Source: Candidatus Cacconaster stercorequi
Lineage (GTDB): Bacteria; Bacillota; Clostridia; Oscillospirales; Oscillospiraceae
Assembly: GCA_018064925.1 (NCBI GenBank)
Contig: JAGHUH010000002.1
Location: 1 to 42,397 of the forward strand
Direction: 5' to 3'
Length of the DNA: 42,397 nt
Both the position numbers and the translations under genes were made by a program. Of this stretch, positions 771 to 13,784 are shown one piece after another. Under the pieces are notes generated by a model. It was given only the letters and a program-made list of their open reading frames with translations. It ran no database searches and was not told the origin of the DNA. Within the stretch, counting starts at the first letter, position 1. Every line of letters starts with the position of its first letter.

Positions 771-2549
771 TTAAAACAGTTTAATTTTTTCTAACAAATA
801 GCGAATGATTGTCTTTTTCTGCGTCACGATCTTTGCCTCCAATTGCATACCGACAGAAACCGAGCCAACATTGCCATCTTTGTCCTTTAACTGCCCGCTT
901 GGGATACTGCCCTCCACAAGATAATAGCCCGAATACTCTCCGTTCTGAACCAGCGTGTCGGATGATATCTTCGTAACAACACCCTCTAAAGCGCCATACT
1001 GACTGCTCGGGAGTGCAGATAGGTTGTATCTGACCACATCACCGACCTCAATATTAGCGATATCCGAGTTCTTAACATACATATTGACGCGAAACTCGCT
1101 CTCGTTAAACGGAATAATTGTCCCAATTACCGTCCCCGCGGTTATTGTATCACCCTTTACAAATATACTGTTCACGCTTATTACACCGGATCTCTTGGCT
1201 ACAATAGAGCCTTGCGCTACTTGATCTTCAGCTTGCTTTATTTGCGTATTCAGCTCATCCAGTTGCTCTTTTAAGGTTTCTTGTTGCGTGGTGATTTCCG
1301 ATAGCTGTTTTACCGTAGTTAGAGAAACCGTAATCGGTGTGCCGCTACCATCTGTATTTGAACTGTATAGTTCACTGCTTATCTGATATTGCTGTAGCGA
1401 AGACTTCGCTGCAGTCAACTCTGTTTCTGCTCCTTGAATCGAACTGTCGATCTGCGTAAGCATCTGTAGTTTTTGCTGCTCTTTTTTATTCTCATACTGA
1501 TCTTTCATCGCTGCAAGTTGTGCATCCTTGCTCTCTGAGGACGAAATCGTTGATTGTAGGTCTGCTGCCCTACTCTCGTACTCAGCCAAAGCCTGCTGAT
1601 AGTCTGCAAGCGTTTTATTCTTATATATATCGAGAGCTGTGGTGTCCTCGGCTTGCTCATAGGCGGCGACATTGGCGCAGTATTCGTCATACAGGGTTTT
1701 ACAAGTGCTTGTGTCCCCCTTTGGAAATACGGCTTTACCGTTCTGGATGGATTTCACCAGATATCCATACTCCATCGCCATAGACTGGCACTGCTCAAGA
1801 GCCTTTTTATTGTCAGTATCGCTTGTGTCCTGTTCAATCTGCTTTTTCTGGGACTGATACTCCAAATCCAAGGCATCCAAGGTGGATACATACAACTGAT
1901 ATTGCTTATCGTACTCGGGGTAGTTCTTTGCTTGATTGCTGCCTTTTTGTACGCTGGACTTAAAGCTCTTCAGCCCTGCCAGTTGATCCTCCAGCCCCTC
2001 TATCTGTGTGCGAATTGCTCCGATTTTTGCCTCGGTTGTAGATGCGTCGAATGTAAAGTTATCTTGCGCGTCCTTTCGCGACAGCTCATAATCTCTATAT
2101 CTCGTGTAATATGCGTATTCCTTACTCTCGGCATCAGAGGAAAACGGATTAGCTCCATTCTCTACCCCTTGTCGGAACTTTTCCAGCATATTTTTTTGCC
2201 ATTCAAAGTCTTTTTTCTTATCCTTTAAGGAGTCTAATAGTATCTGGCTCTCTGCGGTATCAATGGATAGTAGGATATCGCCTTTGTGAACGACCTGACC
2301 ATCCGTGTAATTTGCGTTTGTCACTCGGCCACTCAACAAGCTTGATAATGTACTCACATCGTCATTGGGCCGCACCGTACCAACCGCCGTTGCGACGATC
2401 TCTATTTCCCCTACGCAAGCGTAGAGTATGGCTGCAACAAGTAGACCGACTATGCAATAGATAAACACGGAGATAAAAGGATTAGGTCTATGACCGTATA
2501 TCTCCTTACTATCCGACATCTCATTGATATTGATTATATCTTTTCTCAT
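771..2549 (-). CDS. HlyD-family bacteriocin export accessory protein
   Basis: 592-aa membrane-fusion/accessory subunit that should work with the adjacent C39 ABC exporter to move cleaved peptides out of the cell. A single membrane helix lies at about residues 27-49 (VFIYCIVGLLVAAILYACVG). A first lipoyl-like half follows (VGTVRPNDDVSTLSSLLSGRV, DGQVVHKGDILLSID), then a very long coiled-coil region (about 85-445) rich in Gln, Glu, Lys and Asp, then the second lipoyl half (GSIVAKRSGVISV, VKGDTITAGTVIGTIIP) and a C-terminal beta-barrel (VGDVVRYNLSALP, GVVTKISSD). The length exceeds typical HlyD (about 450) because of the extended coiled coil. Its ATG overlaps the PCAT stop (ATGA), so the two are translationally coupled. 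A bacteriocin-export role follows from the neighbours. Confidence 0.88.
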   Translation of the reverse strand: MRKDIININEMSDSKEIYGHRPNPFISVFIYCIVGLLVAAILYACVGEIEIVATAVGTVRPNDDVSTLSSLLSGRVTNANYTDGQVVHKGDILLSIDTAESQILLDSLKDKKKDFEWQKNMLEKFRQGVENGANPFSSDAESKEYAYYTRYRDYELSRKDAQDNFTFDASTTEAKIGAIRTQIEGLEDQLAGLKSFKSSVQKGSNQAKNYPEYDKQYQLYVSTLDALDLEYQSQKKQIEQDTSDTDNKKALEQCQSMAMEYGYLVKSIQNGKAVFPKGDTSTCKTLYDEYCANVAAYEQAEDTTALDIYKNKTLADYQQALAEYESRAADLQSTISSSESKDAQLAAMKDQYENKKEQQKLQMLTQIDSSIQGAETELTAAKSSLQQYQISSELYSSNTDGSGTPITVSLTTVKQLSEITTQQETLKEQLDELNTQIKQAEDQVAQGSIVAKRSGVISVNSIFVKGDTITAGTVIGTIIPFNESEFRVNMYVKNSDIANIEVGDVVRYNLSALPSSQYGALEGVVTKISSDTLVQNGEYSGYYLVEGSIPSGQLKDKDGNVGSVSVGMQLEAKIVTQKKTIIRYLLEKIKLF

Positions 2550-4708
2550 CGCTGATCCCCCGTTTGAGCTTGATACAAACCGCGGTAATAGCCATCATCT
2601 TTTGACATCAATTCATCGTGCGAGCCATTTTCAATGATTCGGCCCTTTTCCATCACAAAAATCCTGTCACAACGTCGAATCGTACTTAAACGATGCGCGA
2701 TAATAATGGTTGTCATACCCTCGCTATAGGAATCCAGTGTTTCCTGAATAGCTTTTTCTGTAACGGCATCCAGATTACTGGTAGCCTCGTCCAGAATGAG
2801 AATGTCCGGTTTTTTCATCATCGCCCTGGCAATGGCAATTCTTTGCCGTTGGCCGCCGGACAGATTGCTGCCGTTTTCGTCCAGATGCGTTTCATAGCGC
2901 AATGGAAGAGTATTGACGAATTCGTGGATCTGTGCCATTTTTGCACATCGAATTACATCCTCCATGTCCGGGTGATCCAATCCGAATGTCAGATTATCCA
3001 TGATGGTTCCGCTGAACAGGAATGTCTCCTGTGGTATGTATGCGATTTTATCGCGCAGCGTCTCTAACTGAATATCCGGCAACGCATAATCCGCAACAGT
3101 AATCGTTCCGCTTTCATACTGATACAGGTTCAGAAGCAACTTTGCTATCGTTGTCTTACCTGCTCCGCTTTCGCCTACAATAGCAATGTTTTCACCCTGC
3201 TTGATATCCATAGAAAAGTGTTCCAGCGCCAACTGTCGGGTGCCATACCGGAATGAGATATCTTGGATGGAAATGTCGCCTTTCAAAGACGTGGGCGCGA
3301 CCTTATGTTGCTGAGCTTCGGTTTTTTCAATTTCCAGATCTAAAATTTCTCCCAAACGGTCTGATGCAACCATAGCTGTCTGCATGGTCGGCTGCAAGTT
3401 GATAAGATTTTTGATTGGGTCAAGGAAGTATACAAGAAGCGCATTGAATGACACCAAGCTACCGATAGTCATATCTCCTGTAAGTACGCTATGTGCGCCT
3501 ACCCAAAGGATAATCACGCCGCCAACGGCTTCCACAAATGCTTTTAAGCCTTCCTGCGCATTACCGATGCAGGATAGCTTAAAGATGCTCTTGAGCAAGC
3601 GCACAAACTTGAATTCCGTCTCTGTCTGTACTGTACGCTCTCCGTTAAACGCCTTTACTGTCTGGATACCGTTCAACGACTCTACCAGATAGGATGTCAG
3701 TTGCGAGTTGTCCTCCATCTGCTTCTGGTTGGCCTTTTTATAGGGCTTATTGAACACCAGCACAAGAACGCCGTACAGCACCACCATAACAAATGCGATG
3801 GCAAACAGTACCTTGTTTTTGAAGAACAGAATCAAACCTCCGGCAATCGCCATCAGCGTGTCGATCATCACAGTCAGCGTGGCATTGGAAATGGCATCGC
3901 GGATAGAAGATGCATCTTGAAAACGCGAGATGATCTCACCTACCTTGCGGGTACCAAAGAAGTTCATCGGCAGTTTCAGTACATGGTCATAATAGCCTAA
4001 CAGCAGGGCAATATCCAGCTTTTGACTAAGATACACTAAGAGCTGTGAGCGAAGGACGGAGAGCAATACCGAGAATAGCTTCAGCAAAATTACGCCGATT
4101 GACAGAATAGTCAGCGTTTTTTCTATACCCGCTGGTAAAATATCATCAATGATGAACTGGAAGTAAAAAGCGCCTAAGATGCCCAGAATTGTAATGACCA
4201 TTGATGCTACAAATATATCGATAACAAGGCGTTTCTGTGGCAATAGTAAACCCCAAAAACGCTCAAAGATATTTTTCGTCTCTTTATCTTTTTGGAAGGC
4301 CTGCGCCGGAACCATCAGAATCAGGAAGCCTGTCCACGTTTTGAAGAATTCCTCCGGTGTCTTTTTTACAAGTCCCTTGCCCGGATCGGCAATAATTACT
4401 TCTTTTTTTGTGATTCTATGTATCACGACATAGTGGAGCAGTGTCCCGTCCACGACCACATGGGCAATGGCGGGCAGCGGGAAATCCGAAAAGAATGCGT
4501 TCTGATCTCCCTTTACGGCCTTTGCCGTAAAACCAAGCTGCTCGGCAGCTTTTACCACGCCGTAAGCGTTGGTGCCTTGCTTGTCCGTTCCTGCCACCTC
4601 GCGGATTTTAGTAATGGACGTAGATAGTCCGTACTGTTTTGAGATGGTAGCCAAGCACGCAGCACCGCAGTCCGTAATATCATGTTGTTTTATACAGTAA
4701 TATTTCAT
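2546..4708 (-). CDS. peptidase-containing ABC transporter (C39, PCAT) for double-glycine peptides
   Basis: 720-aa bacteriocin-type exporter with three domains in order. First is an N-terminal C39 cysteine peptidase (1-130) with catalytic Cys14 (QHDITDCGAACL), His92 (LHYVVI) and Asp108 (ADPGKG). Next is a six-helix ABC membrane domain (about 160-440). Last is a nucleotide-binding domain with Walker A GESGAGKTT, signature LSGGQRQR, Walker B ILILDEATSNLD and switch His in AHRLST. C39 peptidases cut after the GG of leaders such as those encoded at 5.8-9.9 kb, and the ABC part exports the core. All catalytic residues are present, so it should be active. It is the only intact exporter in the window, so it probably serves all four precursors. 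Its ATG overlaps the stop of a CPBP gene fossil, and its stop overlaps the HlyD start. Confidence 0.95.
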   Translation of the reverse strand: MKYYCIKQHDITDCGAACLATISKQYGLSTSITKIREVAGTDKQGTNAYGVVKAAEQLGFTAKAVKGDQNAFFSDFPLPAIAHVVVDGTLLHYVVIHRITKKEVIIADPGKGLVKKTPEEFFKTWTGFLILMVPAQAFQKDKETKNIFERFWGLLLPQKRLVIDIFVASMVITILGILGAFYFQFIIDDILPAGIEKTLTILSIGVILLKLFSVLLSVLRSQLLVYLSQKLDIALLLGYYDHVLKLPMNFFGTRKVGEIISRFQDASSIRDAISNATLTVMIDTLMAIAGGLILFFKNKVLFAIAFVMVVLYGVLVLVFNKPYKKANQKQMEDNSQLTSYLVESLNGIQTVKAFNGERTVQTETEFKFVRLLKSIFKLSCIGNAQEGLKAFVEAVGGVIILWVGAHSVLTGDMTIGSLVSFNALLVYFLDPIKNLINLQPTMQTAMVASDRLGEILDLEIEKTEAQQHKVAPTSLKGDISIQDISFRYGTRQLALEHFSMDIKQGENIAIVGESGAGKTTIAKLLLNLYQYESGTITVADYALPDIQLETLRDKIAYIPQETFLFSGTIMDNLTFGLDHPDMEDVIRCAKMAQIHEFVNTLPLRYETHLDENGSNLSGGQRQRIAIARAMMKKPDILILDEATSNLDAVTEKAIQETLDSYSEGMTTIIIAHRLSTIRRCDRIFVMEKGRIIENGSHDELMSKDDGYYRGLYQAQTGDQR

Positions 4709-4764
4709 AATAATTGTTTCAATACCAATTGAGCGCCGACGACAATAGCGTTGTTTGCCGCATG
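4705..4764 (-). pseudogene. 3' fossil of a CPBP protease gene
   Basis: The minus strand reads HAANNAIVVGAQLVLKQLL-stop. This matches the end of the intact CPBP protein at 8912-9568 (HAVNNALVVGAQFLLMRGN), including the HxxxN motif. Nothing upstream continues as CPBP coding; the sequence passes into a peptide-core fossil. The stop codon overlaps the PCAT start (ATGA), exactly as the intact CPBP gene at 6791 overlaps the PCAT fossil. It is the remnant of a module deleted next to the exporter. Confidence 0.7.
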
Positions 4765-4765
4765 A

Positions 4766-4826
4766 GGCAATTTTCCCATAAAGCTGTATTTCTACAAGGG
4801 ATCATTGGGTTTCACACCCCATTCGG
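4766..4826 (-). pseudogene. fossil of a bacteriocin precursor core
   Basis: On the minus strand EWGVKPNDP, then after a one-base shift PCRNTALWEN, closely matches the C-terminal part of the precursor at 9650-9868 (NWGVQPNDPCRNTALWKIYC). A single extra T before TGT puts a stop (TTG TAG) in the frame. No leader is left. It sits between the 28-codon ORF and the CPBP tail, so deletion joined the end of a peptide gene to the end of a CPBP gene. Confidence 0.65.
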
Positions 4827-4838
4827 CACCTTCTTTCA

Positions 4839-4925
4839 TCAAAATATGCCAAAATGCATCAAAATATCAGCTGTTATTATGCCCAAAATAAAAGCAATAA
4901 CAAACCTTAACACTTTCTTTTTCAT
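4839..4925 (-). CDS. 28-aa membrane peptide, unknown function
   Basis: The ORF encodes MKKKVLRFVIAFILG plus ITADILMHFGIF: three lysines, then one hydrophobic helix. It has a good ribosome-binding site (GGAG, 7 nt before ATG). The 16 nt GGAGAATTCTTATGAA spanning its start are identical to those of the 14-codon gene at 10895-10939, which argues that the initiation region is real and shared. It is followed at once by the peptide fossil in another frame, so it may be the truncated beginning of a larger gene. No family is recognised. Confidence 0.4.
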   Translation of the reverse strand: MKKKVLRFVIAFILGIITADILMHFGIF

Positions 4926-5003
4926 AAGAATTCTCCAATACAACATTTTGTGTGCAGGTAACCCAATACATCGAAAGCAGCACATTTGTTTTTTATTTGA
5001 CAA

Positions 5004-5672
5004 TTACGGACATATCACGGTCAGTAAGATTGAAATTCCATTGTTTATCATGTGTAGAAGAATTGAGCAACAAATATTTTGACTTTTCTCATATATTCGG
5101 CAGGCAAACAGGCCAAAGATAATGGGTGGAATAATCAATATCATTCCACTTACGTTGCCGCTAAAGATAGCACTCCAAATATGATTTAATCCAAAAAGAA
5201 ATGCAGTAATGATATAGGCAAGTTTCCGATGGTGCGGATAGATCGCATTAAACATACCAAAGCGCATAGAAAGCTCCTCGGTAATCGGAGCAAAAAATGC
5301 GCCTACAAAAAGATAGCATATACGCCCCCATAGTGATGGAAATACTATTTCCGTCTCCTGTACATTTACAAAAAGGCTACAAATCACGCTTGCGGCAAAG
5401 TTGAAAAATAAAGCCATGAAAAGTAAATTTTCTACCATTTTCAAAATGCTTTTCAAGTCTTTGAAAAACATTTGTACGCTGTCCAAGAAGTCGCCCCCCC
5501 AAAACAGGAGCGTTATGGCAAGGGTAATGCTTTGCAAGATAGTCCATATGGTACTATCGTTAATACGAGGTGCTATTGCAGTAAGAATGCCATAGCCGAA
5601 TAACAGGTTAAGTGTGATTAGCAAATATAGAATAACCGCTTTTATTTTTTCCCGCTTTGAAAAAGCTCGCAT
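5004..5672 (-). CDS. CPBP-family intramembrane metallo/glutamic protease, likely immunity protein (module 4)
   Basis: 222-aa polytopic membrane protein with the three CPBP (Abi) motifs: EExxxR (EELSMR), FxxxH (FGLNH) and HxxxN (HMINN), on successive C-terminal helices. Members next to bacteriocin genes (PlnI, SkkI) give self-immunity, and that is the inferred role here. The start at 5672 (MRAFSKREK) is chosen because GGAAGG lies 8-9 nt upstream and it places the first helix near the N-terminus, as in the other three copies. The alternative ATG at 5726 lies in the loop of the upstream hairpin. It follows the precursor at 5802-5978. Confidence 0.85.
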   Translation of the reverse strand: MRAFSKREKIKAVILYLLITLNLLFGYGILTAIAPRINDSTIWTILQSITLAITLLFWGGDFLDSVQMFFKDLKSILKMVENLLFMALFFNFAASVICSLFVNVQETEIVFPSLWGRICYLFVGAFFAPITEELSMRFGMFNAIYPHHRKLAYIITAFLFGLNHIWSAIFSGNVSGMILIIPPIIFGLFACRIYEKSQNICCSILLHMINNGISILLTVICP

Positions 5673-5703
5673 ACTACGCACCTTCCATCTGTGTAGATAA
5701 TCT

Positions 5704-5745
5704 TTCAACAGGATGGTACCAGACATAGAGCACCATCCTGTTGAA
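5704..5745 (-). repeat. hairpin between precursor and CPBP gene (module 4)
   Basis: Perfect 14-bp arms TTCAACAGGATGGT (5704-5717) and ACCATCCTGTTGAA (5732-5745) with a 14-nt loop. There is no T-run after it on the minus strand, so it is not a standard terminator. It occupies the same place as the hairpins of the other three modules. Confidence 0.75.
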
Positions 5746-5801
5746 GAAAAAGCTTTGAATAAAGAGATCCGTCTCCTATCGCTAAATCAGGAGGATACTA
5801 A

Positions 5802-5978
5802 TTACCACTTGCTTACAATGCCGTAAATCTTTTTTGCGATATTCCAAATATTTTTGTAGTCATCTGCAGTCATCTTCGGGTTTGGCTTGTTACAAAGAAA
5901 TGTATAACCACCGTCGACTTCCATCATCTCGTTGGCACTCATTGCCTCGAAAGAACCCATATTCAGTTTCTTTTCCAT
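5802..5978 (-). CDS. double-glycine bacteriocin-like precursor (module 4)
   Basis: 58 aa. The leader MEKKLNMGSFEAMSANEMM-EVDGG (24 residues) has the hydrophobic spacing and terminal GG of peptides cut by C39 exporters. The predicted mature part is 34 residues, from YTFLCNKPNPK to IYGIVSKW, with a single Cys. The start is supported by AAAGGAG 7 nt upstream. The gene has its own dyad-containing promoter region (6002-6054) and is followed by a hairpin and a CPBP gene. One Cys rules out an internal disulfide; it could be a pore-forming peptide or a pheromone. Leader identity with the other precursors makes the class assignment strong; the activity is unknown. Confidence 0.85.
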   Translation of the reverse strand: MEKKLNMGSFEAMSANEMMEVDGGYTFLCNKPNPKMTADDYKNIWNIAKKIYGIVSKW

Positions 5979-6001
5979 AGTTTTTCTCCTTTGTTAAAAT
6001 A

Positions 6002-6054
6002 TTTATATCCTCTGCAATCTTTCGAGAGCTCCCAAAAGATAGCAATTGATATCC
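6002..6054 (-). promoter_or_regulatory. promoter with long dyad upstream of module 4 precursor
   Basis: On the minus strand a GATATCAATTGC half-site (right end 6054), an inner quasi-palindrome CTTTTGGGAGCTCTCGAAAG, and an inverted half-site AAAGATTGCA..GGATATAAA are followed by the gene's ribosome-binding site. TATAAA (minus, 6007-6002) is the likely -10. The same layout precedes the precursors at 7762 and 9868 and suggests a dimeric regulator site overlapping the promoter. Confidence 0.5.
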
Positions 6055-6057
6055 TGC

Positions 6058-6288
6058 TCAAATTCTAATCATACAGCATGTATTTATATATGACACTCCA
6101 TATTCATTGATCTCCTTTACATGATTATATAAAAAAATGACACTCCTATACGTTGCCTGCATTTGTAATTTTTCGTTGGAAATTGTTGCTTTTCGGATGT
6201 GGTCAGCAATTCTATTACCCCCATCAGATACAAAGAGGGCTCCGCACAAAGCAGATAAGATATATCCTATTGAAATCGACCATCGCAT
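6058..6288 (-). CDS. doubtful 76-aa ORF, possibly mosaic
   Basis: The first half (MRWSISIGYILSALCG, then ALFVSDGG) looks like a membrane helix, but there is no ribosome-binding site before the ATG at 6288. The part around 6169-6195 is an exact 27-bp copy of the promoter-side repeats of the response regulator gene (9997-10023), read backwards. The second half is therefore probably non-coding DNA brought in by recombination. It is in the same frame as the 92-aa ORF upstream, after that ORF's TAA. Confidence 0.2.
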   Translation of the reverse strand: MRWSISIGYILSALCGALFVSDGGNRIADHIRKATISNEKLQMQATYRSVIFLYNHVKEINEYGVSYINTCCMIRI

Positions 6289-6333
6289 CAAAAGATAGTC
6301 TTTAAAGAGGAAAAGGTCAACCGCGTTAGTGCA

Positions 6334-6612
6334 TTAAAACTTCAAGTCTCCAATCAGCCAGCGATAAAAAGGTATGGCAACCGAATATGAACAAATCCCA
6401 CCAATGACAATCGCGCCACCAGCAGTATCCCATTTCCACACGGAAAGCATCAAAATGAGAAAATAAGCTAGGCAAGCACATACCATAAATAAGACTTGTT
6501 TCATCGGTAACTTTGACAAATTAAATTTCTTACGGGAAAAGCCGACACAAATAAGAATGCTTGATCCTATCAACAGAATAATCGTGACTGTTTTGGCTAA
6601 AATATCTCCCAT
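6334..6612 (-). CDS. 92-aa three-helix membrane protein, unknown
   Basis: Starts at ATG 6612 with GGAGGG 6 nt upstream. Three hydrophobic segments lie at about residues 5-23 (LAKTVTIILLIGSSILICVG), 38-58 (VLFMVCACLAYFLILMLSVW) and 63-82 (GGAIVIGGICSYSVAIPFY), with a basic loop (RKKFNLSK) after the first. The small size, membrane nature and position inside a bacteriocin locus fit an immunity protein, but no family motif is visible and the role is inferred from position only. It follows the PCAT fossil by 17 nt. Confidence 0.6.
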   Translation of the reverse strand: MGDILAKTVTIILLIGSSILICVGFSRKKFNLSKLPMKQVLFMVCACLAYFLILMLSVWKWDTAGGAIVIGGICSYSVAIPFYRWLIGDLKF

Positions 6613-6629
6613 GAAAAGCCCTCCTTACT

Positions 6630-6794
6630 TCAGGCAACTCCTACATATGACGCAAGTGTTCCAACGGCAAATAAAACGGCGGCTGTTCCTCCACTATCGA
6701 CCAATCCACATGCACCACATTGCTTGGAAATAGCAGCCAGTCATGCCGCCCCGCAGTCGGTAATATCATGTTGTTTAATACAAGTATATTTCAT
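6630..6794 (-). pseudogene. PCAT 5' fossil with in-frame UGA, joined to a hydrophobic tail
   Basis: The first codons read MKYTCIKQHDITDCGAA, then UGA, then LAAISKQ, nearly the same as residues 1-25 of the intact exporter (MKYYCIKQHDITDCGAA-C-LATISKQ); UGA stands where Cys18 is. After that the similarity stops and the frame continues as CGACGLVDSGGTAAVLF plus AVGTLASYVGVA before TGA. The ATG overlaps the stop of the CPBP gene at 6791 (ATGA), the arrangement also seen ahead of the intact exporter. It is best read as a duplicated exporter gene collapsed by deletion; the tail has a GG followed by a hydrophobic stretch and may come from another peptide gene. Confidence 0.65.
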
Positions 6795-7426
6795 AATACA
6801 GTTGCCAAAAAATTATTAATCATATGGGCAAAAATCATCATAGAAAGATTATCCGTCCTTTTGTAAGCCCAGCAAATAAAAATAGATGGAACAATATATA
6901 CCAAAATATCTAATGCAAATCCACTATGGAAAAATGAAAATATCAAACCTGTAATATAAATGCTAAGCCATTGTCCGTGTTTTCCCATGGTCTTTTCCAA
7001 CCATCGCTGAAGTATATATCGAAAAACAATTTCTTCAACAACTGGTCCAGCAAAAACAGGCAGAAAGATGTGTGGCACTATCTGCATATTTAATATGCTT
7101 TCCTCATTTAAAGATGAAATGCTCGGCCAAAAACAATGAAAAGCAAAAGAAGAAAGAACATTTAATGCTAATATAATCACCGCAATAATTATGGACTTTA
7201 AACAAAAGTGAAAAAAATCTTTTTCTTTATAATAATCATCTACTATCACACGATAGTATAAGCTGATGGCAATCACAAAGAGGATTGTATAGTATATCAG
7301 CGTAACATAATCATCTTCAGCCTTTGGAATAAGTCGTCCCACTATAACAGTATTAAGCAGAATTGCTAATGGCATAGCAGAAAGGCAAGAAAAAATCATT
7401 AGTGCATTCTTCGACTTATAGCTCAA
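6791..7426 (-). CDS. CPBP-family intramembrane protease, likely immunity protein (module 3)
   Basis: 211-aa polytopic protein with EExxxR (EEIVFR), FxxxH (FSFFH) and HxxxN (HMINN). The start is a TTG at 7426 with GGAGG 7 nt before it; no upstream ATG competes. It lies downstream of the 71-aa precursor and the 18-bp hairpin. Its stop overlaps the ATG of the PCAT fossil. CPBP proteins are multi-pass membrane proteases; beside bacteriocin genes they give the producer immunity, which is the inferred role. The Lys/Tyr/Phe-rich, AT-biased codons match the other modules and differ from the purine genes. Confidence 0.87.
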   Translation of the reverse strand: MSYKSKNALMIFSCLSAMPLAILLNTVIVGRLIPKAEDDYVTLIYYTILFVIAISLYYRVIVDDYYKEKDFFHFCLKSIIIAVIILALNVLSSFAFHCFWPSISSLNEESILNMQIVPHIFLPVFAGPVVEEIVFRYILQRWLEKTMGKHGQWLSIYITGLIFSFFHSGFALDILVYIVPSIFICWAYKRTDNLSMMIFAHMINNFLATVL

Positions 7427-7458
7427 TTTATCACCTCCTACACTATTATTGTATTTAT

Positions 7459-7513
7459 AATTTCTGATCGTTTACCAAAAAACTCATGAGCATTCGGTAA
7501 ACGATCAGAAATT
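7459..7513 (-). repeat. perfect 18-bp inverted repeat between precursor and CPBP gene (module 3)
   Basis: Arms AATTTCTGATCGTTTACC (7459-7476) and GGTAAACGATCAGAAATT (7496-7513) with a 19-nt loop. No T-run follows on the minus strand (ATAAATACAATAATAG). It lies 33 nt downstream of the precursor stop and upstream of the CPBP ribosome-binding site. Confidence 0.85.
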
Positions 7514-7546
7514 ACAGAAATCAACAGTTAGTTCTGTAGTTATAGC

Positions 7547-7762
7547 TTATTTTTTCTTGCGTTGCACCTGATAATCATCCAAAAAGCGATAACCATGCGC
7601 ATTATCAAGACACTTTTTATACAAATTAACAGCCATTCCGATAAGATAATCGCGTGCAAACCCGCCAAGAACTTCCGCGACCGCGCTCGTACCGCCGTCA
7701 ACTTCCATCATCTGCTCCCGATCCAATGTCTCAAAAGCACTCAGGTTCAAAGTCTTTTCCAT
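7547..7762 (-). CDS. double-glycine bacteriocin-like precursor (module 3)
   Basis: 71 aa. The leader MEKTLNLSAFETLDREQMM-EVDGG is identical to that of the precursor at 9650-9868. The predicted mature part is 47 residues, TSAVAEVLGGFARDYLIGMAV to a very basic end (QRKKK), with one Cys. An amphipathic N-terminal half and a basic tail fit a membrane-active class II-type peptide; an inner LGG is unlikely to be cut because the leader hydrophobic pattern precedes the first GG. AAAGGAG lies 7 nt before the ATG. Promoter dyad upstream, hairpin and CPBP gene downstream. No known bacteriocin family is recognised in the core. Confidence 0.87.
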   Translation of the reverse strand: MEKTLNLSAFETLDREQMMEVDGGTSAVAEVLGGFARDYLIGMAVNLYKKCLDNAHGYRFLDDYQVQRKKK

Positions 7763-7781
7763 GTTTTTCTCCTTTCGTGAA

Positions 7782-7840
7782 ATTATAATTTATATCAACT
7801 GCAATCTTTCGTAGGCCTCCAAAAGGTTGCAGCTGATACC
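7782..7840 (-). promoter_or_regulatory. promoter with long dyad upstream of module 3 precursor
   Basis: On the minus strand GGTATCAGCTGCAA (7840-7827), inner CTTTTGGAGGCCTACGAAAG, and the inverted half-site TTGCAGTTGATATAAA (to 7789). The outer halves are complementary over about 12 bp. TATAAA (7794-7789) or TATAAT (7787-7782) would serve as -10. Same layout as at 6002-6054 and 9892-9944. Confidence 0.5.
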
Positions 7841-7851
7841 GCTGTATGGAA

Positions 7852-8550
7852 TTACAAAATTGATGCTATTATGTTTGAAAAAGAGTGCAATATAATAGGA
7901 TAGTAAATATTGCCGCACTTTTCGTAATACTTGGCATAAAAGAAACCAGAGATCCCATACGGAATGATGTACCACATTTGTGAGGGATACCCATCAACTA
8001 CAGGGCCAAGCACATGAAGTAAGCCAAACGCCATTGAGGAAATAATATAAGCGAGAACTTTACTTTTTCTACTCAACGGTTTAAAAAGGCCAAGTCGGAA
8101 GACTACTTCCTCAATAATTGGCGCCAATATAACAATAAGTATTGTTATGATTGTACTGATCCATAGATTCCCGGAAAATTGAAGCGCATCTAACCCGCTT
8201 TCGTTCATCGGTTCGCTTAAGATTTGTATATCTATTACACGGGAACATATGCCATTTAAAACCGCCGACAACAAGTAGTATGGAATAAGCCATAAAAACT
8301 TCTTCGTTTTAGACCTCTTGCTTTCATGAATAAATAGCAGCCACTCTTCCTTAATAAATTCTTTTTTCCAGATAACTATCAAGACAATGGACAGCACATC
8401 AAAAAGCGCCATGAAAGCAACTCTAATCCATACCACATCCAAGAGCCTATTAAAAGGTTCAATAATCCGGCACAATATGAATGGCAATCCCCAATATGTT
8501 AAAAAAGGGATTATCGTTGTCCAGAAATATTTTTTATCGTTTTTTTTCAT
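7852..8550 (-). CDS. CPBP-family intramembrane protease, likely immunity protein (module 2)
   Basis: 232-aa polytopic protein with EExxxR (EEVVFR), FxxxH (FGLLH) and HxxxN (HSFSN). ATG at 8550 begins MKKNDKKYFW; the ribosome-binding site is weak, so expression may depend on coupling or on the hairpin 18 nt upstream. It follows the Ser/Thr-rich precursor at 8652-8906 and ends 12 nt before the dyad of module 3, so each module downstream has its own promoter. Role as immunity protein inferred from gene pairing, as for the other three copies. Sequence divergence between the four CPBP copies is large outside the motifs, consistent with each recognising its own peptide. Confidence 0.86.
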   Translation of the reverse strand: MKKNDKKYFWTTIIPFLTYWGLPFILCRIIEPFNRLLDVVWIRVAFMALFDVLSIVLIVIWKKEFIKEEWLLFIHESKRSKTKKFLWLIPYYLLSAVLNGICSRVIDIQILSEPMNESGLDALQFSGNLWISTIITILIVILAPIIEEVVFRLGLFKPLSRKSKVLAYIISSMAFGLLHVLGPVVDGYPSQMWYIIPYGISGFFYAKYYEKCGNIYYPIILHSFSNIIASIL

Positions 8551-8567
8551 AACTATAACGGTTTTGT

Positions 8568-8602
8568 AATCCGATGTGGGCTATATTAGCCCACATCGGA
8601 TT
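8568..8602 (-). repeat. perfect 16-bp inverted repeat between precursor and CPBP gene (module 2)
   Basis: Arms AATCCGATGTGGGCTA (8568-8583) and TAGCCCACATCGGATT (8587-8602) with a 3-nt loop. It is very stable and not followed by a T-run. Its sequence is unrelated to the hairpins of the other modules. Confidence 0.87.
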
Positions 8603-8651
8603 GCTGCGTTGGACTGACATTATTTAACCATACAAGGTCTCAATGTGAACA

Positions 8652-8906
8652 TTACCAAAGCCCTGCTGCTTTAGTTTGACCAAGGGTTTTCCCAATATCA
8701 AAAAATGCATCACGCCATGTATAGGTGCTGCTTTTTGTGGAGGATTTGGAGGATGTAGACTTGGTGGGGGTGTAGTCATCAATAAACTTGTAACCGCCAT
8801 CGACTTCCATCGCTTCACGGGAATCCAGCTCCGCGAAAGCGCCCGTATTCAGTTTCTTTTCCGTGGTAAGCTTAAATTGGATAACAAATACTGTCACACT
8901 TTTCAT
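8652..8906 (-). CDS. double-glycine precursor with lost original start (module 2)
   Basis: 84 aa if read from ATG 8906. Residues 15-38 are the familiar leader (TEKKLNTGAFAELDSREAM-EVDGG), but where the other precursors have ATG GAA AAG this one has ACG GAA AAG, so the usual start codon is gone. The extra 14 residues (MKSVTVFVIQFKLT) form a hydrophobic extension. ATG 8906 lies 5 nt after the stop of the upstream CPBP gene, with GAGGG 11 nt before, so translation is probably coupled; no dyad promoter is present. The 46-residue core is Ser/Thr/Lys-rich in its middle (TPTKSTSSKSSTKSSTYTW) and lacks Cys. It may be a decayed or a re-started precursor. Confidence 0.7.
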   Translation of the reverse strand: MKSVTVFVIQFKLTTEKKLNTGAFAELDSREAMEVDGGYKFIDDYTPTKSTSSKSSTKSSTYTWRDAFFDIGKTLGQTKAAGLW

Positions 8907-8911
8907 GTTTC

Positions 8912-9568
8912 TCAATTCCCTCGCATCAACAAAAACTGAGCCCCCACAACAAGCGCATTATTTACTGCGTGAGCAAATGTAACCAATGCGAGGTTATCGC
9001 TTTTCTCATAAATAACACCAAATATAATGCCCGCGATAAAATAAGGAAAGAAATCTATTGAAAATCCACTATGAAACAAACCAAAGAGGCATCCACTCAC
9101 AACAATTGCAAATTGCTTGCTATACCTCATATTGCCTGTCCCTATTGTTCCTTGAATAATGTATCTAAACACGACTTCTTCGGTTATCGGTTTAAGGAAA
9201 ATAGTAGATAGAAGAATCGGAACGGGTAGCAAATTGAAAGATGCTTTAAAACTCATTTGGTTAGAGGTGGTATTATGGGTTATGTGCATAATCAGCGCAG
9301 AAGTTAACAGGTTGGTCGCAAGCACGACAATCACAGAAAGCATTAAGGAACGCAAGAATTTTTTGCCACGCTTAATTCCATCGCGAAGAACATCCCAGTA
9401 TAAAACATACGCACTTCCGCCTATGAGGGTGCTGATAAGTAGCGTGATGTAAGTCGTTGCAGTCTCCTCTGGTATATTGTCCATAGCACATGCGACAACA
9501 AAAGAAACGACATATGCCGCTATTATTGCGCACATCATGATTAAGTTACGGTTTTTGATATTACGCAT
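8912..9568 (-). CDS. CPBP-family intramembrane protease, likely immunity protein (module 1)
   Basis: 218-aa polytopic protein with EExxxR (EEVVFR), FxxxH (FGLFH) and HxxxN (HAVNN). ATG 9568 (MRNIKNRN) is preferred; a TTG at 9580 is in frame but has AAAGG directly against it. It sits downstream of the 72-aa precursor and the 21-bp hairpin. Its last 20 residues (HAVNNALVVGAQFLLMRGN) are the closest match to the CPBP fossil before the exporter, so that fossil came from a copy of this gene. The precursor of module 2 begins 5 nt after its stop. Immunity role inferred. Confidence 0.86.
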   Translation of the reverse strand: MRNIKNRNLIMMCAIIAAYVVSFVVACAMDNIPEETATTYITLLISTLIGGSAYVLYWDVLRDGIKRGKKFLRSLMLSVIVVLATNLLTSALIMHITHNTTSNQMSFKASFNLLPVPILLSTIFLKPITEEVVFRYIIQGTIGTGNMRYSKQFAIVVSGCLFGLFHSGFSIDFFPYFIAGIIFGVIYEKSDNLALVTFAHAVNNALVVGAQFLLMRGN

Positions 9569-9593
9569 TACTGACTTCAACCTTTCGCTTGCT

Positions 9594-9639
9594 GGTCAAT
9601 AAGTATAGTGGCGATATTTCGCCACTATACTTATTGACC
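9594..9639 (-). repeat. perfect 21-bp inverted repeat between precursor and CPBP gene (module 1)
   Basis: The left arm (9594-9614, beginning GGTCAATAAGTATAG) and the right arm (9619-9639, ending ATACTTATTGACC) are exact complements with a 4-nt loop. It begins 11 nt after the precursor stop on the minus strand and has no following T-run. Confidence 0.9.
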
Positions 9640-9649
9640 CAAATCGTCA

Positions 9650-9868
9650 TTATCTACAATAGATTTTCCACAGAGCTGTATTTCTACACGGGTCGTTAGG
9701 CTGAACGCCCCAGTTGGCTTTGTTCTTCCACGCTGCCTTTGCGATGTCATACGCAAGGCCGCCGCCAAAAATCTTGACGATTTCAGTCAGAGGGTTGCCG
9801 CCGTCAACTTCCATCATCTGCTCCCGATCCAAAGTCTCAAAAGCACTCAGGTTCAAAGTCTTTTCCAT
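9650..9868 (-). CDS. double-glycine bacteriocin-like precursor (module 1)
   Basis: 72 aa. Leader MEKTLNLSAFETLDREQMM-EVDGG, then a 48-residue core starting NPLTEIVKIFGGG and ending DPCRNTALWKIYCR. Two Cys near the C-terminus (12 residues apart) could form a disulfide; the N-terminal half is an amphipathic, Gly-containing helix. ATG 9868 has AAAGGAG 7 nt upstream. It is the first gene after the divergent promoter region shared with the response regulator and has the clearest promoter of the modules. Its C-terminal segment is duplicated as a fossil at 4766-4826, so a second copy once stood next to the exporter. Confidence 0.88.
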   Translation of the reverse strand: MEKTLNLSAFETLDREQMMEVDGGNPLTEIVKIFGGGLAYDIAKAAWKNKANWGVQPNDPCRNTALWKIYCR

Positions 9869-9891
9869 GATGTATCTCCTTTGCAAAATGT

Positions 9892-9944
9892 ATTATATCA
9901 AACGCAAATCACCGTGTCGACCCAGTTCTTTGCAGTTGATATCC
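9892..9944 (-). promoter_or_regulatory. promoter and dyad of module 1 precursor
   Basis: On the minus strand -35 TCGACA (9920-9915), 17-bp spacer, -10 TATAAT (9897-9892). The dyad GATATCAACTGCAAA (from 9943) and TTTGCGTTTGATAT (9908-9895) overlaps the promoter; 12 of 14 positions pair. The -35 region GGTCGACAC resembles part of a Spo0A box (TGTCGAA) on the opposite strand. The gene and the divergently transcribed regulator share this interval. Confidence 0.6.
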
Positions 9945-9980
9945 TAATGTCATAATAGGATAAAAAGCTTAAAATCGGTA

Positions 9981-10041
9981 TTCGTTTTCTTCGTTGTTTT
10001 TCGTTGGAAATTGTTGCTTTTCGTTGGATATTTGCTATAAT
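9981..10041 (+). promoter_or_regulatory. promoter of the response regulator with 10-bp-phased TTCGTTG repeats
   Basis: TTCGTTG occurs at 9990, 10000 and 10020, with a degenerate ATTGTTG at 10010 and TTCGTTT at 9981, so the unit repeats with one helical turn. An extended -10 (TGCTATAAT, hexamer 10036-10041) and a possible -35 TTGCTT (10014-10019, spacer 16) lie inside or just after the array. Repeats on one face of the DNA suggest cooperative binding by a regulator, perhaps the encoded one. Confidence 0.6.
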
Positions 10042-10061
10042 GCAAAAAGAGGTGATGCGTT

Positions 10062-10847
10062 ATGGAAAAACCGTTATCTATTCTTCTGGTGGAAGACGAT
10101 GCCAATACCTGCCAGGAAATCATCCGTTATATAGATGATTTGGATGATGCAGTTTTAGTTGATGTGACCAACAATTCAATGAAAGCGGAACGGATCATCC
10201 GTGACAGTTTGCCGGATGCCGTCATTCTTGACTTGGAGCTGCACTACGGCGGCGGCAGCGGCATCTCCTTGCTGCAAGCCTTGCAGCAGGACACGCCTCC
10301 GCGTATGCCATATATCCTTGTTACCACCAATAATTCCAGCGCTATTACATACGAGGCGGCCCGTCAATCCGGTGCCGATTACATTTTCTCTAAGCATCAG
10401 GCAGACTACTCGTCAAAAGCCGCGGTTGACTTTTTGCGGGCATTGAAAAATATTATTCAGAGCAACGCTGCCCTCAACGCGAGCAGCAAAGCCGCAGAAG
10501 AAAGCTCGCTGCAAAAAAGTAAGCGCCTCTCCCGCAGGATCTGCGCAGAGCTGGATCGTGTTGGCATCAGCCCCAAGGCAACGGGATATTCCTATTTAGT
10601 TGACGCGATTCAAATGATTACTGTGGCTCCCACACAAAATCTTTGCAGTATCATCGGGCAAAAATACGGAAAGACGGAATCCAGCGTAGAACGCGCCATG
10701 CAAAATGCTATTGCTAAAGCTTGGCGGACAACTCCTATTGACGATTTGTTGAAATATTACACGGCCAAAATCCGTTCGGATAAGGGAGTCCCTACCATCA
10801 CAGAGTTTATCTACTATTATGCTAACAAACTCAAAAACGAGTATTAA
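10062..10847 (+). CDS. Spo0A-type response regulator
   Basis: 261 aa. Receiver domain 1-130 with acidic pocket Glu11/Asp12/Asp13, phosphoryl site Asp57 (VILDLEL), Thr88/89 and Lys111. The C-terminal domain (about 155-261) carries the Spo0A DNA-binding pattern: LDRVGISPKATGYSYLVDAI, KYGKTESSVERAMQNAIAKAW, then GVPTITEFIYYYANKL. GAGGTG lies 7 nt before ATG 10062. True Spo0A is a housekeeping gene; this copy beside peptide, exporter and kinase genes is more likely the pathway-specific regulator of the locus. Likely targets are the dyad promoters of the precursors and its own repeat array. It is transcribed away from the peptide genes. Confidence 0.85.
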   Translation: MEKPLSILLVEDDANTCQEIIRYIDDLDDAVLVDVTNNSMKAERIIRDSLPDAVILDLELHYGGGSGISLLQALQQDTPPRMPYILVTTNNSSAITYEAARQSGADYIFSKHQADYSSKAAVDFLRALKNIIQSNAALNASSKAAEESSLQKSKRLSRRICAELDRVGISPKATGYSYLVDAIQMITVAPTQNLCSIIGQKYGKTESSVERAMQNAIAKAWRTTPIDDLLKYYTAKIRSDKGVPTITEFIYYYANKLKNEY

Positions 10848-10883
10848 AAAAGCAGGTCAGCTATGCCTGCGCGATAGCTGACC
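10845..10883 (-). terminator. terminator of the 14-codon gene, overlapping the regulator's 3' end
   Basis: Arms GGTCAGCTAT (10855-10864) and ATAGCTGACC (10874-10883), followed on the minus strand by GCTTTTTTAA. The T-run orientation shows that it mainly ends leftward transcription coming from 10939; on the plus strand only CCTTGCATTTTG follows, a weaker tail for the regulator mRNA. Confidence 0.7.
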
Positions 10884-10894
10884 CTTGCATTTTG

Positions 10895-10939
10895 TTAAAT
10901 ACCAAATTTTCCACTGATCCAATCCCAAAGCCAATTCAT
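10895..10939 (-). CDS. 14-residue Trp-rich peptide gene between regulator and kinase
   Basis: Encodes MNWLWDWISGKFGI. It has a near-perfect ribosome-binding site (AAAGGAG, 7 nt before ATG) and a strong terminator 12 nt after its stop, so it forms a minimal complete transcription unit on the strand opposite to its two neighbours. There is no leader or GG motif. The short, Trp-rich, amphipathic peptide could act on the membrane or as a signal sensed by the kinase encoded at 11052; that is inference. The 16 nt around the start match those of the ORF at 4839-4925. No known family is recognised. Confidence 0.45.
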   Translation of the reverse strand: MNWLWDWISGKFGI

Positions 10940-11051
10940 AAGAATTCTCCTTTCTTTTTTTCTATGAGTGTAGGAGAATTTCTCTAAAACTTATATTTGT
11001 TCACAGGTGTGGTTTCTTGTCGGTTTTCATTGCTTTTTGTGGTGAGTAAAT

Positions 11052-12467
11052 ATGCTGATAACTTTCGTAAAGCATCTTTTCATTATCGGATGCAGTACTT
11101 ATATAACCCCAAAAATTCTCAACAAAAAATGCTCATGGAGAGTAATCATTCTTCTGAGTTGTGCCGGCCTGATGTCTGCCGGCCTGATGATGCCGCTTCG
11201 GCAGGTGATGCGGCCAGCCAGCACTATCATCATGGTCGCCGTATCTATCATTGTCACAAAAGTTATTTACGGCCTTGAGATAGATATTTCCATTACCGCA
11301 ACGATTATCAGTTATGGCATTAGTTATATATCTTACCTTCTCGGAATAATCCTTTTGGGTTCAATATTTAGCATTATCGGCTATCATCCGGATAGGGTGG
11401 ATTTGCTTTCTACAGGTATCGTCGGCAGTATTCAAGCGGTGCTTACCATTTTGCTGTTTCGTATCAAACGACTACGCCATGGTTTCCCGTTTCTTTTGGA
11501 CTCCAGATATGGCGATCTGGGGGTTTATCTCAGCACAACTATTTTAGTGATTGTCTCCTTTTTGGGGGTCAAATCAGAGTCACAGTATATTGTCGCAGTT
11601 CTTTTTTCCGTACTTCTTATCTGCGGCTTGGTTTTGTGGTTTTGGTGGAAGAAGCGCATCACAAAAGAATATTTGGAGCAACTGCGGCAAAAGGAGCGGC
11701 AAGAACTTCAGGCAATCATTTCATCAAAGGATGACGAGATTGCTATGTTGAAAAAAGAAAACGAGACTTTTTCCAAAATCATCCACAAGGACAATAAACT
11801 GATTCCTGCTATGGAGTTAGCTGTAAAAGAGACTCTATGCGCCGTAGCGCATAACAATGATCCGGATGAGCGAATTCTGCGGGCTGAAAAGATGCTCGCG
11901 CAATTAGAATCTGTTTCTGCCGAGAGAACTGGTATTGTTAGTAATTATGAACATACTGACCATAGACTGCCATCTACAGGTGTTTTGACTTTTGATGCGT
12001 TGTTTTCCTATATGCTATATAAAGCCAGCGCAAAGGATGTATCTTTGGAACTGGATTTTGATGAAACTGTCAACGAATTGATTCCGAAAGTCATTTCTCC
12101 AGAAGATGCTTCAACCTTGTTAGCCGATCTTCTGGAGAATGCCATCATTGCCGCCGGAGAAAATAATCAGAATAGATGCGTCCGTGTAGAATTTATTAAG
12201 AAAGATACATATCCTTGTATCTGTATTAGCGACACCGGCAGTCCTTTCCCGGATAAAGTGAAGCAAAACTGGGGAATACAGCGTGTGACCACCCATGCAG
12301 ACAGTGGTGGCAGCGGAATTGGCATGATGACCACTTACGAAATCTGCAAGCAGTATTGTGCCAGCTTTTTGGTCAGTAATTTTGAGGTTGGTGAAATGTA
12401 CACAAAATGCGTATCAGTCTGCTTTGACGGCGCAGGACGCTGTTCTTTTGGGAATACGTCCAAATAG
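11052..12467 (+). CDS. GHKL (AgrC-like) sensor histidine kinase
   Basis: 471 aa. The N-terminal half has about six membrane helices (to about residue 200, ending VLFSVLLICGLVLWFWWKKR), then a coiled coil (about 205-250), a phosphoacceptor region IIHKDNKLIPAM like the HxxxN site of HPK10 kinases, and a C-terminal GHKL ATPase with N-box LLADLLENAIIAA, G1 ISDTGSPFP and G2 GGSGIGMMTTYEI. Such kinases commonly sense exported peptides. ATG 11052 follows GGTGAG by 5 nt, and a TGA just upstream in frame excludes a longer protein. It is probably the partner of the Spo0A-type regulator 204 bp upstream and controls peptide production. Confidence 0.85.
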   Translation: MLITFVKHLFIIGCSTYITPKILNKKCSWRVIILLSCAGLMSAGLMMPLRQVMRPASTIIMVAVSIIVTKVIYGLEIDISITATIISYGISYISYLLGIILLGSIFSIIGYHPDRVDLLSTGIVGSIQAVLTILLFRIKRLRHGFPFLLDSRYGDLGVYLSTTILVIVSFLGVKSESQYIVAVLFSVLLICGLVLWFWWKKRITKEYLEQLRQKERQELQAIISSKDDEIAMLKKENETFSKIIHKDNKLIPAMELAVKETLCAVAHNNDPDERILRAEKMLAQLESVSAERTGIVSNYEHTDHRLPSTGVLTFDALFSYMLYKASAKDVSLELDFDETVNELIPKVISPEDASTLLADLLENAIIAAGENNQNRCVRVEFIKKDTYPCICISDTGSPFPDKVKQNWGIQRVTTHADSGGSGIGMMTTYEICKQYCASFLVSNFEVGEMYTKCVSVCFDGAGRCSFGNTSK

Positions 12468-12717
12468 GTAATAAAAATACTCGTCGACAGCATGCCGACG
12501 AGTATTTTTTACTCATTTTGCAAAAATGACATAGATAATCCAACCACGCAGCATACAAATCCACTGTAGCTATGCCGATTACACCGTCAGGCAGCGGTGT
12601 GATTTCTCGCGTTGACTGGCTTGATGGAACAAAGAATGCCGCGCCGGATTGTGTCGCTGCAATCGCCAGCTGCCTTTCAGTCGGTGTAATCGCAACGAAG
12701 ACTTTCTTCTTTCTCAT
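12373..12717 (-). CDS. 114-aa hypothetical protein, probably with a non-native C-terminus
   Basis: ATG 12717 follows AAAGG and overlaps the end of the helix-turn-helix gene by about 40 bp. The first 60 or so residues (MRKKKVFVAITPTERQLAIAA, then PLPDGVIGIATVDLYAAWLDYL) look like a soluble protein. From about 12510 the frame runs through the kinase terminator and antisense to the end of the kinase gene, so the C-terminus is likely accidental and the gene truncated by a rearrangement. No family is recognised. Confidence 0.4.
   Translation of the reverse strand: MRKKKVFVAITPTERQLAIAATQSGAAFFVPSSQSTREITPLPDGVIGIATVDLYAAWLDYLCHFCKMSKKYSSACCRRVFLLPIWTYSQKNSVLRRQSRLIRILCTFHQPQNY
12474..12510 (+). 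terminator. intrinsic terminator of the kinase gene
   Basis: 13-bp arms AAAATACTCGTCG (12474-12486) and CGACGAGTATTTT (12496-12508), 9-nt loop, T-run to 12510; it starts 7 nt after the kinase stop. Confidence 0.85.
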
Positions 12718-13309: not shown

Positions 13310-13784
13310 TTTACTCCTTTCAGCTTGGCCCGAAAAGGTAAAATATGGATATTTCGGAGATTTGGGGCGTTTTTTCTTGCATTTATCCGGGAGACTGCCC
13401 GTAAGGCTATACAGAGCAAGGTTTTTCTTCTTGCGTATTTTCTTGCAAACGTGCAAAAAATTAGCCGTTTTTGAGTATTTCCCATTTCCATTTGAACTCT
13501 GGATTTTTCTGTTTTGAAACTGGTCAATACTGGCCGTCTTGTCTACAAGTCATTGTGGCGCAAGGCTTTTCAGCGTTTTCGAAAATGCCGCATCTGACCA
13601 CAACGGACACGGAAATGCCAACTTCTCTTAAGACTCGAAATGTCGAGAAGCTCTGGCTGATACGTCCGCACGATTTCTTTTTCTTGCAATCACAAGGGAA
13701 AGCTCGAATTTAGAAATTTCCGAGTGTTCTTGCGTGCTTTTCTTGCAAACGTTCTGAGCAGTTTGTCGGAGTTCAATTTTATAT
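13310..13784. other. intergenic region with a 25-bp direct repeat
   Basis: No convincing gene is present. The main structure is a near-identical direct repeat: TTCTTGCGTATTTTCTTGC plus AAACGT (13428-13452) and the same with GC for A and one base more (13727-13752), 299 bp apart. The second copy ends 33 bp before the tRNA gene. It may hold the tRNA promoter and the promoter of the helix-turn-helix operon; neither has good consensus boxes. Confidence 0.4.

Follow-up and report, generated by a model that had tools for sequence, protein, structure and literature searches.

C39 exporters cut their peptides after a double glycine (GG), and CPBP proteins encoded beside bacteriocin genes have been linked to self-immunity; a study on Abi proteins was reportedly published by Kjos et al. 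in 2010. In the plantaricin (pln) and pneumococcal blp loci, GG precursors are accompanied by a C39-ABC exporter with an accessory protein, by CPBP (Abi/CAAX) genes and by a two-component system, the regulators being of the LytTR family. A stretch of 42,397 nucleotides from Candidatus Cacconaster stercorequi (contig JAGHUH010000002.1; hereafter the window) carries a comparable island, in which GG precursors, a C39-ABC exporter with its accessory protein, CPBP genes beside the peptides and a two-component system lie together. Unlike pln and blp, it repeats the order peptide, hairpin and one CPBP gene four times, has peptide cores for which no relatives were found, and is flanked by a regulator of the Spo0A family; moreover, fragments of the exporter 5' end (here called stubs) stand beside the cassettes in relatives, and once in the window. 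As judged from sequence, the region is likely to be a class II (GG-leader) bacteriocin island assembled from peptide–immunity cassettes.

Another point of comparison is provided by the orphan cdiA-CT/cdiI and rhs-CT/rhsI arrays of contact-dependent inhibition (CDI) and Rhs systems, in which, according to passages of PMC3150448, unrelated toxin–immunity modules are found beside one delivery gene together with pieces of that gene of varying length. As far as those passages go, the island resembles these arrays in its modules beside one delivery gene, its partial gene copies (stubs in 10 of 37 loci) and its differing partners, but the conserved piece is here the exporter 5' end and not part of a toxin gene, and the modules lie upstream, mostly keep a promoter and a leader, and could all use one exporter. 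The delivery gene encodes a C39-ABC exporter and not a CdiA or Rhs protein; by analogy the island may work like a CDI/Rhs array, though it is not one. Double-glycine precursors are also what it has in common with the two-peptide clusters of the Hungate1000 survey of rumen isolates, where 21 two-component clusters were predicted (PMC13289728, in part); the available main text of that paper makes no mention of CAAX, CPBP or 'truncated'. Titles and abstracts, within a partial coverage of the literature, gave nothing on point for exporter stubs, Spo0A-type bacteriocin regulators or Trp-rich leaderless signals, and passages of PMC13059744 contained nothing on exporter stubs. An original prediction for this DNA had called the locus undescribed-looking, which holds for the cores as far as they were searched but not for the general type, which is already known. 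Within the same searches four things look new: the exporter stubs as traces of the movement of cassettes, the promoter found in close relatives, the variety of proteases that fill the partner slot, and a tiny open reading frame (ORF) beside the regulator. If true, the cassette reading would account for the way in which gut Clostridia assemble and alter their sets of small antibacterial peptides. It would also supply DNA signatures, namely exporter stubs and, for close relatives, the TGGGTCGACAC promoter, that reveal unknown precursors even where the core resembles nothing, and natural pairs of peptide and immunity gene on which the mechanism of immunity by membrane proteases could be tested, some of these proteases being of unrelated families.

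Island layout and precursor peptides

The minus strand of the window carries the HlyD gene, the exporter gene and four precursor–CPBP pairs (5004-9868; Table 1). The four precursors and four CPBP genes of the original prediction are all re-found in place on that strand, and its single C39 exporter with an HlyD partner agrees with the family profile matches: the exporter exceeds the TIGR01193 cut-off (710.7 bits versus 523.85), and HlyD resembles TIGR01000 while staying below the cut-off (164 versus 258.85). The multi-bacteriocin reading with one common exporter, also proposed there, is well supported by relatives, where the partner gene behind GG peptides changes between cassettes and exporter stubs lie beside these. 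That prediction had overlooked three things: an exporter 5' fragment, the decayed remains of a fifth module (about 4720-4836) and the regulators at 10062-12467. Each cassette is proposed to consist of a precursor peptide, a hairpin and a partner gene for self-immunity, three of the four in the window having their own promoter, and the single exporter, together with HlyD, would cut all the precursors after GG and export them, as their families suggest.

Table 1. Features of the island and its surroundings, by position in the window
Feature	Position	Strand	Remarks
HlyD-like accessory protein	771..2549	-	PF13437, 54.9 bits
C39 peptidase-ABC exporter	2546..4708	-	PF03412 and PF00005; sole full copy in the island
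Fifth CPBP gene, C-terminal remnant	4720..4764	-	73% identical to CPBP4 over 15 amino acids
P4-like core remnant, frameshifted (GVKPNDP / CRNTALW)	4773..4836	-	69% over 13 and 75% over 12 amino acids
Hydrophobic ORF, 28 amino acids	4839..4925	-	with ribosome-binding site
CPBP1	5004..5726	-	PF02517, 56.7 bits
Module 1 hairpin	5704..5745	-	14-bp perfect stem
Precursor P1	5802..5978	-	24-residue leader, 34-residue core
P1 promoter dyad	6001..6051	-	aligned with other cassettes
Box CGTTGGAAATTGTTGCTTTTCG upstream of P1	6174..6195	+	exact copy of the box at 10002
Membrane-type protein, 92 amino acids	6334..6612	-	no Pfam family match
Exporter 5' stub, codons 1-27	6714..6794	-	stop at codon 18; ATG overlaps CPBP2 stop (ATGA)
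CPBP2	6791..7426	-	PF02517, 69.7 bits
Module 2 hairpin	7458..7514	-	22-bp stem
Precursor P2	7547..7762	-	24-residue leader, 47-residue core
P2 promoter dyad	7788..7838	-	aligned with other cassettes
CPBP3	7852..8550	-	PF02517, 69.4 bits
Module 3 hairpin	8568..8602	-	16-bp perfect stem
Precursor P3	8652..8906	-	38-residue leader; without own promoter dyad
CPBP4	8912..9580	-	PF02517, 74.7 bits
Module 4 hairpin	9594..9639	-	21-bp perfect stem
Precursor P4	9650..9868	-	24-residue leader, 48-residue core
P4 promoter	9880..9936	-	TGGGTCGACAC (9914-9924) and TATAAT
Box CGTTGGAAATTGTTGCTTTTCG in front of the response regulator gene	10002..10023	+	
Response regulator, Spo0A-type DNA-binding domain	10062..10847	+	PF00072 and PF08769 (Spo0A_C, 80.9 bits)
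Tiny ORF MNWLWDWISGKFGI	10895..10939	-	strong ribosome-binding site; inverted repeat after it (by eye)
GHKL sensor kinase	11052..12467	+	PF14501
Excisionase-like helix-turn-helix gene	12677-13456	-	beside the island
tRNA-Ser(CGA)	13785-13876	+	beside the island

The precursors have ribosome-binding sites and display the traits of class II peptides, namely a leader ending in GG, a core within the range of about 30-60 residues (34-48 here) and a C39-ABC exporter nearby; among the genes scanned at 771-13456, where not every ORF was scanned, no modification enzyme was seen. The common 24-residue leader that had been predicted is found in three of them, whereas P3 starts further upstream: its codon homologous to the other start codons is ACG, and a usable ATG (8906) lies 5 nt past the CPBP4 stop. 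The cores, foreseen as unrelated, have no mutual similarity by eye, and even P2 and P4, whose leader DNA is 99% identical over 72 nt, have cores that look unrelated. In tblastn comparisons with a first set of related loci, the four cores gave one chance-level match only (P1, E 0.29). Weak PHROGs families of unknown function are matched by P1, P3 and P4, and none by P2; the P4 precursor, the only one compared with plasmids and solved structures, gave no match in the former and a single insignificant one (E 0.87) in the latter. The four MEVDGG leaders are the sole matches to the MEVDGG DNA pattern in the genome of the window. This pattern was tried as a route to relatives in 150 genomes of the family, of which 8 matched (the window's own four times, seven others once each), and it was abandoned since on inspection none of the seven other matches was a GG precursor.

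Partner genes and hairpins behind the peptides

The related loci come in part from an exporter search that gave 27 loci. Most belong to uncultured Clostridia, many of them apparently from ruminants, and Lachnospira multipara ATCC 19207 is also represented; two of the 27 are only distantly related (26% and 29% identity), and another covers no more than 14 residues. Counting the window's own genome, the regulator is found in 10 of 300 family genomes (E <=1e-25), the exporter in 5 of 300 (E <=1e-150) and the exporter N-terminus in 45 of 391 class genomes (E <=1e-4). A leader regular expression retrieved 60 precursors, from which 4 were dropped as false and to which 2 were added by hand, leaving 58 with the window's 4 included.

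All four CPBP genes have the EExxxR, FxxxH and HxxxN motifs that had been described as intact (by eye), and exceed the PF02517 cut-off of 22.4 bits; they are the only PF02517 matches in the genome (1.83 Mb, 88.5% complete). Their mutual identity is 25-41% over the aligned parts. CPBP1 probably starts near 5672, since its listed start falls inside the module 1 hairpin (by eye). The linkage of CPBP genes to such precursors, on which the original prediction had staked itself, recurs in relatives, where a CPBP gene lies directly 3' of precursors in L021, L022, L023 (a call that rests on the local profile only) and L031. For 54 of the 58 precursors a next gene was scored, which is another precursor in 22 cases and something else in 32. 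The latter include 13 proteases of unrelated families (CPBP 8, four of them in the window, S41 3, M48 1 and DUF3267 1), 6 exporters, and 13 others, one of them an ABC ATPase and most of them, by eye, small membrane proteins or unknown ones. A slot filled by unrelated proteins after changing peptides has the look expected of a cognate immunity gene, and the partner gene, here a CPBP membrane protease, most likely gives self-immunity, as the sequence pattern indicates; that pattern would extend the idea of CPBP immunity to other partner families. The earlier module idea is right in form and probably in function as well. S41 peptidases are found directly behind GG precursors twice in L029 and once in L014, and one gene and a stub further on in L033.

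A hairpin for each module had also been predicted, and every peptide–CPBP gap of the window has a stem of 14-22 bp (p 0.00-0.01, 100 shuffles each). When hairpins are scored as stem length minus 2 per mismatch, and counted at a score of at least 10 within 110 nt of the stop, they occur at 18 of 32 peptide-to-partner ends, including the window's 4 of 4, versus 0 of 22 peptide-to-peptide ends (Fisher 5e-6, a value that overstates independence because the loci are related) and 12 of 300 random windows; at S41 and exporter ends the counts are 0 of 5 and 2 of 30. Within the window it is the structure rather than the sequence that is kept, as the stem sequences differ between its modules, while two modules of L031 have a common stem sequence. 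The hairpin would probably stop or protect transcripts at this point, yielding more peptide than immunity message. Canonical intrinsic terminators were ruled out, as no T-run follows the stems (by eye).

Several findings weigh against reading the modules as bacteriocin–immunity pairs. No precursor reaches the cut-off of a curated bacteriocin family in Pfam or NCBIfam: PF10439 (Bacteriocin_IIc) gives 15.3-22.4 bits for three of them (P2 22.4) with a cut-off of 27.1, TIGR03949 stays below its cut-off for the same three, and P3, the remaining one, has no family match at all in these two collections. The next genes were chosen by a simple rule (ribosome-binding site and length) and not by full annotation. 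Hairpins are absent from 14 of the 32 peptide-to-partner ends, and they are found also at 8 of 23 HlyD ends and 4 of 19 CPBP ends.

It could be argued that the CPBPs serve not immunity but processing, maturing either the peptides or a signal, a role that has been proposed for SilX and SagE. In Streptococcus anginosus, the CAAX protease SilX is encoded next to the angicin locus, and in the passages of PMC9298176 that concern it no immunity role was found: its deletion abolished activity, which was rescued by the mature signal peptide, and did not sensitise the cell. Both settings place a CPBP-family protease beside a bacteriocin and a peptide-sensing two-component system, but these passages describe one silX gene, acting on the signal and with the EExxxR arginine changed to glutamine (PMC9298176). 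For the island such a role is improbable, as the exporter already has a C39 peptidase, one enzyme would do where four diverged CPBPs each stand behind one peptide, and the same slot in relatives holds unrelated or non-protease genes. It is very improbable that the peptides are signals (pheromones) or act on a host, with the CPBPs tuning the signal; GG peptides can indeed be pheromones, and a sensor kinase and a regulator lie next door, but the 34-48-residue cores lack mutual similarity (by eye), up to seven precursors are recognised per locus (L015), one sensor kinase only was noticed beside the island, and several relatives have paired glycine-rich cores like those of two-peptide bacteriocins (by eye). 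One decayed module, one stub with a stop codon and the lost start codon of P3 could be taken to mean that the modules are decaying leftovers without present function, which is quite improbable given that the four CPBP motif sets, the exporter and HlyD are intact, that the precursors have ribosome-binding sites and that the hairpins are kept while their sequences differ.

Exporter stubs in the window and in relatives

The current proposal for the growth of the island is that cassettes accumulate in front of the exporter, each newcomer bringing a copy of the exporter 5' end. Recombination at that end would leave the old 5' end behind as a stub, as the stubs themselves suggest, and the final cassette would remain directly joined to the intact exporter. 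Extra exporter pieces in the loci were detected by tblastn of the exporter. A scan of 37 loci, each against its own exporter and HlyD (E <=1e-3, pieces below 45% identity ignored), gave 21 exporter pieces, from which 17 stubs result in 10 loci (one each in the window, L015, L020, L027, L033 and L106, two in L101, three each in L018, L031 and L102), and no HlyD fragment. All 17 start at codon 1-2 and lie on the strand of the exporter, 16 upstream of it and that of L015 downstream; one of the 21 pieces is internal (residues 195-219) and abuts stub A of L018. L034, whose contig ends inside the last exporter copy, was counted as stub-less because the scan did not report two earlier N-terminal pieces seen by tblastn. 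Remote stubs are found in the genomes G973 and G1001 (L103, L104). When 11 stubs from 7 loci were aligned as DNA, similarity to the local exporter began within about 20 nt of the ATG and ended 44-203 nt into the gene, and in L101 it extends to about 270 nt. Site-specific recombination at the stub is thought unlikely, as the stubs end at different points, from 44 to about 270 nt. An assembly artefact is unlikely in general: the identity between the window stub and the full exporter gene is only 81%, and the three stubs of G973 lie on one 3.1-Mb contig.

In L033 the flanking genes of the stub differ, with precursors and a membrane protein before it and the S41 gene after it, although it matches the full exporter at 96% identity, and in L015 a 95% identical stub has CPBP genes on both sides that differ in sequence (by eye). 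L031 contains four cassettes, whose partners are a small membrane protein, a DUF3267 protein, a CPBP and a membrane protein, separated by three linkers of 376-386 nt that are 93.5-96.9% identical, each made of a stub, a terminator-like sequence and a promoter. In G1001, two precursors, a small membrane protein and a stub lie about 1.4 Mb from the exporter. In the window, the fifth-CPBP remnant is directly upstream of the intact exporter and shares its stop codon with the exporter ATG by overlap (by eye), in the manner of the CPBP2 stop and the ATG of the stub.

The same fragments could have arisen by tandem duplication and decay within one lineage, without any import of cassettes, which is unlikely as a general account but is favoured by several loci. 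L101 (G731:C25, 5738-11740) looks like a tandem duplication, since its two stubs are spaced exactly 3,001 bp apart and both are 100% identical to the full exporter; the repeat could be real or an assembly effect. In L102 similarity reaches further upstream, and the 155-amino-acid gene before the stub and the exporter is duplicated too. The near-identity of the L031 linkers points the same way, as does the comparison of 11 stubs with 26 exporters, in which six (L015, L018B, L018C, L031B, L031C and L033) are closest to their own exporter. Import is further weakened by the single stub between modules in the window, with none between modules 2, 3 and 4, and by the absence of stubs from 27 of 37 loci, at least 10 of which have less than 2.5 kb of upstream sequence. 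Duplication is harder to reconcile with L033, where a recent event would have left like genes on either side of so similar a stub, with the position of the G1001 stub far from its exporter, and with the stubs L018A, L020 and L031A, whose identity to foreign exporters is 4-6 points higher than to their own, over short stretches; the window and L027 stubs give near ties between own and foreign exporters. From the sequences, cassette import with the exporter 5' end fits L033 and G1001, while L101 and L102 fit duplication as well.

In L101, the same 271-amino-acid protein is encoded after each stub, ahead of the full exporter, and no GG precursor was noticed in that locus, where the leader expression was not run. 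A protein of about 155 amino acids, alike by eye, recurs in L102, L022 and L033, and in L102 it stands directly before the stub and the full exporter.

Promoter, regulator and a tiny Trp-rich reading frame

Alignment of upstream regions reveals a common promoter in the window (P1, P2 and P4) and in L027, L028, L031 and L033. Its element TGGGTCGACAC occurs in 8 exact copies, and none with one mismatch, in the window and 30 loci (24 exporter and 6 regulator loci, 538 kb), versus 0 or 1 exact copies in ten trials of base shuffling. The sites are those of P4 in the window, of L027, L028 and L033, and four in L031, each just before a GG peptide and accompanied by a TATAAT-like box. The reverse complement of TGGGTCGACAC contains, at about the -35 position, TGTCGA, the core of the Spo0A box, which fits the adjacent regulator of the Spo0A family. 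The two-component system with this regulator would most likely switch the cassettes on through the Spo0A-box-like -35 site. The reach of such a promoter is limited, as no exact copy lies outside the window and 4 of the 30 loci, another 16 loci lack it, P1 and P2 have looser forms of the element and P3 has none. This restricted occurrence makes TGGGTCGACAC a mark of close relatives (exporter 84-86% identical) and not of the whole group.

A looser version of the box CGTTGGAAATTGTTGCTTTTCG, differing at 4 of 22 positions, precedes the regulator gene in L051. Copies with 6 mismatches precede the regulator in L053 and L028, and may be due to chance, since L053 has a second such match elsewhere, L054 has one only far from the regulator, and L052, L055 and L068 have none at that threshold.

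The tiny ORF MNWLWDWISGKFGI sits between the regulator and the kinase on the opposite strand. In relatives, the same gap holds MLKWFWDLAIFWFWI, MDWLIGIMRSWYHT and MWWKEWWYWFCRFFQSA on the opposite strand and MWAAVLATVRWFFSF on the same strand, and no tiny ORF is present in the 59-nt gap of L051; more distant regulators (31-34% identity) are followed by MAFWDWLIRLMVGKT, MNWLDALIRWMRKWGQP and MRKQGDWLDDLFDYWSRHN downstream on the same strand. A criterion chosen when five cases were already known asked for ORFs of 10-25 codons with at least two Trp, no more than 400 nt downstream of the regulator. It selects 8 of the 18 loci that have enough sequence, L045 being excluded, versus 2.5% of 4,000 random windows, and 3 of 13 loci outside the five known cases, five of these 13 (none matching) having been looked at beforehand. 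Of a three-component quorum layout, the sensor kinase and the regulator are present and the tiny ORF is a candidate peptide only. As a candidate leaderless autoinducer it would, if a signal, represent a new autoinducer type.

A more far-reaching model, possible but tentative, joins these elements. The cassettes would be mobile and carry two conserved arms, the Spo0A-box promoter with the leader on one side and the exporter 5' end on the other; with these, a newcomer would be regulated, exported and provided with immunity on arrival. The first 45-270 nt of the exporter would act as a docking site that leaves stubs behind, and the array would be switched on by a new leaderless Trp-rich signal of 14-17 residues, encoded between the Spo0A-family regulator and the GHKL kinase.

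Among the minor features of the island, the 28-amino-acid ORF next to the decayed module and the tiny Trp-rich ORF have a common 16-nt start region (TTCATAAGAATTCTCC, plus strand), and the 92-amino-acid membrane-type protein is possibly an immunity-like or leftover gene. The guanine–cytosine content is 36-46% in the first 15 kb, 36-52% up to about 19.5 kb and 55-63% beyond, and its low value at the island end of the window suggests acquisition.

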